Source of the DNA: Gammaproteobacteria bacterium
GTDB lineage: Bacteria > Pseudomonadota > Gammaproteobacteria > Ga0077536
Length of the DNA stretch: 64,000 nucleotides
Assembly: GCA_021773835.1 (NCBI GenBank)
Contig: JAJFJQ010000073.1
Coordinates: 62,001-126,000 of the forward strand
Reading direction: 5' to 3'
Made by a program: the position numbers and the translations under genes. The notes under the pieces were generated by a model. That model saw only the letters and a list, made by a program, of their open reading frames with translations. It did no database searches and was not told where the DNA came from. Positions 17,309 through 63,053 of this stretch are shown here, piece by piece (position 1 is the first letter of the stretch; each line of letters starts with the position of its first letter).

Positions 17309-17782
17309 ATGTCGGACATCTACGACATCACAATGGAATCTATTACAGGGGAGTCAGTCGAGCTCTCACGTTACCGGGACCAAGCACTATTGGTTGTGAA
17401 TCTCGCTAGCCAGTGAGGCCTAACCTCACAGTACGCAGGTCTGCGTACACTACAAGAAAAGTTCGCCGGTAAGGTGCAGGTGCTGGGGTTTCCGTGTAAT
17501 CAGTTTGGTGCGCAGGAACCTGGGACGAATGCCGAGATTCTTGAATTCGCGACGACTAAGTATGATGCAAACTTCCCATTGTTCTCCAAGATCGAAGTTA
17601 ATGGTGATGGTGCGTGCGAGCTATACAAATTATTAAAGACCGCACAGCCGAACGCCGATGGCAGCGAAGAGATAACTTGGAATTTCACGAAATTCCTGGT
17701 TAGTGGGGAAGGCGACGTATTGCGACGTTACGACCCGAAAACGACACCAGAAGACATCGCGAACGATCTGGCATCGCTATAA
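17309..17782 (+). CDS. Selenocysteine-containing glutathione peroxidase (in-frame UGA)
   Basis: This is a 157-residue glutathione peroxidase-family thiol peroxidase when the TGA at 17414-17416 is read as selenocysteine (residue 36). Context is NLASQ-U-GLTSQYAGL, matching the NVASQUGKT site of mammalian GPx4. The rest of the tetrad is present: Q69 (FGAQEP), W124 and N125 (TWNFTKF). Sequence upstream of the TGA is conserved family sequence with GGAGAG before the ATG, and the frame continues cleanly to 17782. A bacterial SECIS hairpin lies at 17431-17448. A standard gene caller would report only a C-terminal fragment. A Cys-to-stop mutation is the alternative; the SECIS and two further such genes argue against it. 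Confidence 0.93.
17431..17448 (+). promoter_or_regulatory. Bacterial SECIS element in the glutathione peroxidase gene
   Basis: The sequence GTACGCAGGTCTGCGTAC is a perfect inverted repeat. It folds as a 6-bp stem GUACGC/GCGUAC closed by AGGUCU (8 bp if the A-U and G-C loop pairs also close). The central GCAGGTCTGC is identical to the apical part of the E. coli fdhF SECIS, whose GGU loop binds SelB. The loop GG starts 21 nt after the UGA, within the known 16-37 nt window. A second small hairpin, TGAGG-cctaa-CCTCA (17414-17428), includes the UGA itself. Confidence 0.9.
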
Positions 17783-17826: not shown

Positions 17827-18171
17827 TTGAGTAAAACGATAAATTGGTATTATTTTCGTAAAGGCTGAACGAGCTGTGGCAAAGCCGCCAAGTTTTTGGG
17901 GGCACATGGTATAGAGCCGAAAGAGACGATCCCAGCGTCGCGCAAGTTGGGCCGCGACGACGCTGCCCAATTAGCGGCAAAAGCGAGCAAGCTGATCGTC
18001 GCCAAGGGTAAAAAGGTCACGACATTCGCGACCAAAGGTGGCCCGTCAGAAGAAGCGATTGATGCGATGCTAGGACCTACGGGTAATCTACGCGCGCCGA
18101 CGCTGGTTACGGGTAAAACTGTGATGGTGGGATTCAACGAAGAGCAGTATGAGTCGCTGCTGATTGGTTGA
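17827..18171 (+). CDS. ArsC/Spx-fold selenoprotein with UxxC motif (in-frame UGA)
   Basis: Reading the TGA at 17866-17868 as selenocysteine gives a 114-residue thioredoxin-fold protein of the ArsC/Spx/YffB family. The active site is RKG-U14-TS-C17-GKA, where relatives have Cys-x-x-Cys/Ser. Family features downstream include GAHGIEP, the conserved Arg region NLRAPTL (R89) and VMVGFNEEQYESLL. The start is TTG at 17827, preceded by GGAG. The gene follows the selenoprotein glutathione peroxidase by 44 nt and is probably in the same operon. Arsenate reductase-like selenoproteins are known from marine metagenomes. Whether this one reduces arsenate, a mixed disulfide or a peroxide is unknown. Confidence 0.86.
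17884..17903 (+). promoter_or_regulatory. Candidate bacterial SECIS element in the ArsC-like gene
   Basis: GCCGCCAA (17884-17891) pairs with TTGGGGGC (17896-17903) except for one G-G mismatch, leaving the four-base loop GTTT. The loop begins with G, as bacterial SECIS loops require, and starts 23 nt after the UGA. The structure is less canonical than the element in the upstream gene, so support comes mainly from position and shape. Confidence 0.6.
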
Positions 18172-51725: not shown

Positions 51726-52005
51726 GTTGCAACCTCAATATTCATCCAAAATTAGACCGTCGTAGATGCCGCCCAGCATCACACTGACGGTCCCCACGGG
51801 GAAAATTTTAACAGGCAAACTTGGCGCTCGCTCGTTTCTTAACGATTAAATCGTAAAGCCCTATACGAAGGCGCCATCCTGTAAGACTTTAGAACGAAAT
51901 CTGCCTTTCAGCGCCCTAGATTTTCGGTAATATGTCGTAACGGTCGTGGCCGGACTGCCGTATCATGAACGAGCGCAGGTGGCGGGTAGATTGGAACGGA
52001 ATCAA

Positions 52006-62507: not shown

Positions 62508-62585
62508 CAATTATCGAGAGATATACCAAGCTGGGATGCGAACACGCATAATAGGCAATCCAAATTATTGCGCTGGAGAATTGTG

Positions 62586-63053
62586 ATGGGCGAGAAGCTC
62601 AAGATTGGAGACAGCTTTCCCTCGATGACTTTAAACCTCGTTGGCGGCGGGAATGTGACCTTACCGGACGAGCTGCAGTCCGATTTCGCGGTCGTACTGT
62701 TTTACCGTGGACACTGGTGACCCTTCTGCACCCGGCAGTTAGCCGGGTTTGAAGCGAGTAAAGAAGAATTGCAGAAACTCGGTGTATCGGTGTTCGCGGC
62801 CAGTGTTGATACCGGCGAGAATGCCGCAAAGATTGCGAGTGATTTGTCCTACGCGATAGGCGAGGGCGTGACTCGGGAGCAGGCAGATTTAATCGGCGCG
62901 TGGTGGGAGGACCGGCGTAGTATTGTCCAACCGAGCCAATTCGTGATGCGTCGTGACGGCACGATCATCCAGGCGACCTACTCCGACGGCCCGTTAGGAC
63001 GCTTAGATGCCGCGGATGTATGCGGCTTGGTCAATTTCATTCTAAGTCAATAG
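62586..63053 (+). CDS. Selenocysteine-containing AhpC/TSA-type peroxiredoxin (in-frame UGA)
   Basis: Reading the TGA at 62718-62720 as selenocysteine (residue 45) gives a 155-residue thioredoxin-fold peroxiredoxin-like protein. The active site is FYRGHW-U45-PF-C48-TRQL, where relatives have FYRGxWCPYCxxQL. Family sequence flanks it: MGEKLKIGDSFPSMTL before, LGVSVFAASVDTGENAAKIA and FVMRRDGTIIQATYSDGPLGRL after. GGAGAA lies 5 nt before the ATG. A SECIS-like hairpin is at 62730-62748. Without recoding, only a C-terminal fragment would be annotated. Selenoprotein peroxiredoxins of this type are known elsewhere, which supports the reading. Confidence 0.92.
62730..62748 (+). promoter_or_regulatory. 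Bacterial SECIS element in the peroxiredoxin gene
   Basis: ACCCGGC (62730-62736) pairs perfectly with GCCGGGT (62742-62748), leaving the 5-nt loop AGTTA. The loop has G in its second position, as expected for a SelB-binding loop. That G lies 17 nt after the UGA, inside the known range. The stem of seven pairs, five of them G-C, is very stable. Confidence 0.82.

Follow-up and report, generated by a model that had tools for sequence, protein, structure and literature searches.

A putative Prx-like UxxC selenoprotein gene and its predicted SECIS hairpin in a probable gammaproteobacterium with many selenoprotein candidates

The window, that is, the whole 64,000-nucleotide stretch of DNA that was analyzed, contained at positions 62586-63053 of the forward strand a coding sequence with a single in-frame interruption, a TGA at codon 45 (W-U-P-F-C). 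The protein matched the AhpC-TSA model PF00578 with a score of 71.2 bits (cut-off 26; E 9.9e-20) over residues 7-129, a match that spans the TGA, and AhpC/TSA homology was present on both sides of it. No NCBIfam model was matched above its cut-off by this protein, and the whole window yielded no Rfam match at gathering scores. Codon 45 scored highest when the window was scanned for TGA codons with coding sequence on both sides. Another TGA from the window, at 51737 on the reverse strand, was set aside as a probable ordinary gene boundary on the basis of a Met four codons past the stop and a weak upstream coding signal. The features of the locus, and of two further genes in the window, are as follows:

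62575-62579, forward strand: GGAGA, apparently a ribosome-binding site, 6 nt before the ATG (read directly from the sequence)
62586-63053, forward strand: putative Prx-like selenoprotein gene (PF00578, AhpC/TSA), 155 aa, ending in TAG
62718-62720, forward strand: UGA codon predicted to be read as Sec45 of UxxC; TGA in five orthologues, Cys in distant homologues
62727-62729, forward strand: TGC for Cys48, which closes the UxxC motif and falls on the peroxidatic Cys in alignments with canonical peroxiredoxins
62730-62748, forward strand: predicted SECIS hairpin, stem 62730-62736 / 62742-62748, loop AGUUA at 62737-62741; agrees with the model in PMC13188914 and shows covariation
62931-62933, forward strand: Pro116 codon, in the column where peroxiredoxins have their catalytic Arg and thioredoxins their cis-Pro
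17309-17782, forward strand: putative glutathione peroxidase-like selenoprotein gene, UGA at 17414-17416 (PF00255, E 5.5e-37)
17827-18171, forward strand: putative ArsC-related selenoprotein gene, UGA at 17866-17868 (NF041106, ArsC_rel_Se_1, 110.8 bits, cut-off 85)

The last two genes are located on the same strand, 44 bp apart, and likely form a two-selenoprotein operon. An earlier note on this DNA had placed the locus about 45 kb from these two UGA-interrupted genes, which is correct, and had described all three as thiol-peroxidase or thioredoxin-fold proteins; that description stands in the sense of the thioredoxin fold (GPx, ArsC-like, and AhpC/TSA-like).

Profile alignments with solved peroxiredoxins placed G-H-W-U-P-F-C on G-D-F-T-P-V-C, so that U45 aligned with the Thr of PxxxTxxC and C48 with the peroxidatic Cys. 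The motif is UxxC, and the assignment of the TGA to the peroxidatic Cys in the earlier note was not supported. The canonical PxxxT/SxxC motif was absent, as the protein reads RGHWUPFC, with Arg41 for Pro and Sec45 for Thr, and the conserved active-site Arg of peroxiredoxins was also absent, with Pro116 in that column. This Arg lowers the pKa of the peroxidatic Cys in peroxiredoxins, and its place corresponds to the cis-Pro of thioredoxins (PMC2757866). Because Sec falls on the Thr, Cys48 on the peroxidatic Cys, and Pro116 on the Arg, the UxxC plus Pro active site looks thioredoxin/ResA-like within a peroxiredoxin fold. In an AlphaFold model (three sequences; pLDDT 77.7), residue 45 was located immediately ahead of helix 46-57, and the nearest solved folds were peroxiredoxins, with TM values up to 0.85.

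The hairpin downstream of the UGA consists of 7 bp and a 5-nt loop with G at the second position; its loop begins 16 nt past the UGA, and its folding energy is -16.8 kcal/mol. The published model of bacterial SECIS elements comprises a loop of 3-9 nt, a stem of 4-16 bp, a distance of 16-37 nt from the UGA, a G within the first two loop positions, and a minimum free energy of -7.5 kcal/mol or lower (PMC13188914), and the hairpin of this gene lies inside every one of these limits. Compared with dinucleotide shuffles, the stretch is also more stably folded (z -2.6 to -2.8), and only 2-3 of 200 shuffles did as well. Over the five orthologous sequences, standard pairs filled 88.6% of the pair cells of the helix, as against 11-46% for slid helices, and two pairs were changed on both sides, including, in L032, a G-C to A-U replacement one pair from the loop. 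The outermost pair was formed in only two of the five sequences, the stem of the orthologue from the gammaproteobacterial metagenome-assembled genome (MAG) L029 contained one mismatch, and some orthologues favored other minimum-energy structures when the 54 nt were folded alone. Because five orthologues are a small sample, the covariation is regarded as support for a SECIS helix, not as proof of it. Of the 13 selenoprotein sites of this genome that were inspected, the present gene included, 11 have GU in the predicted loop, as judged by eye. The seven-pair hairpin with an AGTTA loop at the right distance, as proposed from the sequence earlier, is consistent with both the SECIS model and the orthologues.

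All five orthologues, this gene included and each from a different genome, carried TGA at codon 45. Their identities to the gene were 72% (G001), 66% (G009), 55% (a Burkholderiales MAG), and 54% over 125 residues (L029). The orthologue in L029 (CAR3_bin_15; L029:3001-3375) has an unrelated C-terminus past residue 125, likely a frameshift or an assembly join. Four of four distant homologues, from Deinococcus, Mycobacterium, Agrobacterium, and Lichenihabitans plasmids (35-38% identity), have Cys at this codon. Past the TGA, pN was 0.17-0.33 and pS was 0.74-0.85 between this gene and three full-length orthologues, with similar values upstream; synonymous sites are near saturation in these comparisons, so only the contrast is meaningful. 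As read from the aligned sequences, the gene is under purifying selection both before and after the TGA. Its orthologues are rare, occurring in three of 58 near-relative genomes (the window's own included); a search of 369 genomes of the class (E 1e-20) revealed no more orthologues, and 398 genomes of the phylum (E 1e-15) gave three other matches, all without an interior stop. Paralogues of the same kind, with FRGHWUPYC and FRAHWUPYC, were present in many relatives of the family. The upstream gene, which encodes a periplasmic binding protein, remains adjacent to the selenoprotein gene in G001.

The genome harbored the complete set of selA, selB, tRNA-Sec (selC), and selD, which answers the search that the earlier note had proposed. 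The selA (599 bits) and selB (421 bits) genes, both above their cut-offs, are adjacent on contig C47, and a tRNA-Sec with a UCA anticodon is located just downstream of them. A second tRNA-Sec match, on contig C26, proved to be a tRNA-Ser. On contig C55, selD carries a fused pyridine nucleotide-disulphide oxidoreductase domain, an Ndh-SelD arrangement resembling one noted in ocean metagenomes (PMC2398784). In L026:133-2529, which encodes Ndh-SelD, the oxidoreductase domain is N-terminal and there is no internal TGA, so the SelD part is without Sec. The selA-selB-tRNA-Sec cluster of the window's own genome has a UGSC selenoprotein gene directly 5' of it (L127:8904-14935; G000:C47:428904-434935). 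In the Burkholderiales MAG (L028:700-6465), the orthologue of the present gene is flanked by selB-selA and, on the other side and further off, by a UGSC selenoprotein gene that itself carries TGA at UGSC. This neighborhood of selA, selB, Prx-like UxxC, and UGSC genes is possibly a transferable Sec module.

Searches with five families identified 16 interrupted genes in the genome, with interior stops in 4 of 15 PF00578, 5 of 19 PF02627 (AhpD-like), 3 of 3 UGSC, and 4 of 5 PrdB-like matches, and in none of 8 DsbA matches. The interrupting codon was TGA in all 16; TGA accounts for 44% of the stop triplets in the stretches read, and such a result would arise by chance with a probability of the order of 1e-6. 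UGA recoding is therefore genome-wide, as had been claimed. Counting the window's GPx and ArsC-like genes as well, the genome has at least 18 selenoprotein candidates, a lower bound that refers to the selected families and to the roughly 2.78 Mb of the 6.14-Mb genome (including 72,000 N) that were read base by base. The motif itself was examined in 14 of the 18, and the other four, on contigs that were not read, are known only by their reported TGA. Only family-confirmed cases were counted, because two-sided coding-potential scoring of TGA against TAA and TAG was too noisy and gave similar numbers for all three stops. Two PrdB-like proteins with TGA (L112 and L120; G000:C47:127681-128343 and 287757-288434; VPAUPLDHQTVG and APVUPDCCRSVG) scored well under the PrdB equivalog cut-off, and one of them has Asp at the second Cys place of UxxC.

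The interruption could in principle reflect a miscall or a mutation of a TGC or TGT Cys codon, either of which is one base from TGA, and the Cys codon of the distant homologues agrees with such an origin. However, the identical TGA in five genomes argues against a sequencing error, as the earlier note had also concluded, and since purifying selection continues past the TGA and the hairpin covaries, neither an error nor a pseudogene accounts for it; with the Sec machinery complete in the genome, this explanation is exceedingly improbable. A reassignment of UGA throughout the genome to another residue, to Trp as in code 4 or to Cys, would likewise place UGA inside several genes, but TGA also serves as an ordinary terminator here (the ArsC-like gene, for example, ends in TGA), and internal TGA is limited to the redox motifs of a few families and occurs in none of the 8 DsbA genes. 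The presence of selA, selB, and tRNA-Sec, and of SECIS-like hairpins at the inspected sites, makes a residue other than Sec hardly credible. The gene therefore almost certainly encodes a true selenoprotein belonging to the already described Prx-like UxxC class, an assignment made from sequence, and this agrees with the selenoprotein first proposed at 62586-63053 from its in-frame TGA and hairpin.

The product might function mainly in peroxide reduction, with Sec as the residue that reacts with the peroxide, given that it belongs to PF00578, that its nearest folds are peroxiredoxins, and that the U/CxxT motif of glutathione peroxidases shows that the N-terminal motif position can carry peroxidase chemistry (PMC2757866). 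On the other hand, its Sec aligns with the Thr of TxxC, both peroxiredoxin hallmarks (Thr and Arg) are missing, and the known Sec peroxiredoxins are of the TxxU type (PMC1088965), which makes a chiefly peroxidatic role rather unlikely. The product is most likely a thiol:disulfide-type oxidoreductase or a non-canonical peroxidase in redox defence, and thiol:disulfide chemistry is probably the better description of the two, although the nearest folds are those of true peroxiredoxins and Sec at codon 45 might still reduce peroxides. By binding the hairpin, SelB delivers Sec-tRNA-Sec to the UGA. The ribosome would then insert Sec at codon 45 and produce a 155-aa protein of the AhpC/TSA fold, with Sec45-x-x-Cys48 at the N-terminal end of helix 46-57 and Pro116 in place of the Arg. 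The Sec selenolate would attack a disulfide, or possibly a hydroperoxide, as its substrate. Cys48 may then resolve the intermediate by forming a selenenylsulfide, which would be reduced by cellular thiols.

Standard annotation cuts such genes short at the UGA. The less ordinary aspect of this gene is its setting, with at least 18 selenoprotein candidates in a probable gammaproteobacterium. The term "selenoprotein-rich" has been applied to genomes with six or more such genes, mainly among Deltaproteobacteria, Clostridia, and Synergistetes (PMC5029168), and the present genome probably falls outside these groups. The count is no record on present evidence, given a published bacterial set of at least 46 selenoproteins (PMC12013277). 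The genome contained many of the families found in ocean metagenomes (PMC2398784), including UGSC, PrdB-like, Prx-like UxxC and UGC, AhpD-like, GPx, ArsC, and the Ndh-SelD fusion, so selenoprotein reads in ocean metagenomes may derive from this genome and its family. Tentatively, the gene may be part of a selenoprotein-rich bacterial family that is still largely undescribed, and may move between lineages within a selAB-UGSC-Prx-like module, as the Burkholderiales neighborhood suggests.

The enzyme class itself is already known, and the gene is a member of it by motif and domain. Sargasso Sea data yielded, in 2005, a Prx-like selenoprotein family with UXXC replacing TXXU, which has been kept apart as a Prx-like class of the thioredoxin type (PMC1088965), and 225 "Prx-like 1" pfam00578 UxxC selenoproteins were reported from the GOS in 2008 (PMC2398784). 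These proteins, like the present one, combine the PF00578 fold with a thioredoxin-like UxxC motif that replaces TxxU (PMC1088965, PMC2398784, PMC13188914), and no difference of kind was found, subfamily identity being based on the motif and the Pfam model only. The Sec-containing peroxiredoxin (PxxxTxxU) shares the fold family and Pfam model, but Sec in the present protein lies three residues earlier, at the Thr position, and both Thr and Arg are absent. The ResA/TlpA-type thiol:disulfide oxidoreductases likewise have a CxxC-type active site, and ResA chains were among the profile matches, whereas the closest fold matches of this protein are peroxiredoxins and Sec replaces the first Cys. The plasmid-encoded Cys homologues mentioned above, annotated as "peroxiredoxin family" or "redoxin domain" proteins, align over nearly the whole length and share YRGxWCP[FY]C, but contain a Cys codon for the TGA and Ala, Ser, or Asn for Pro around position 116.
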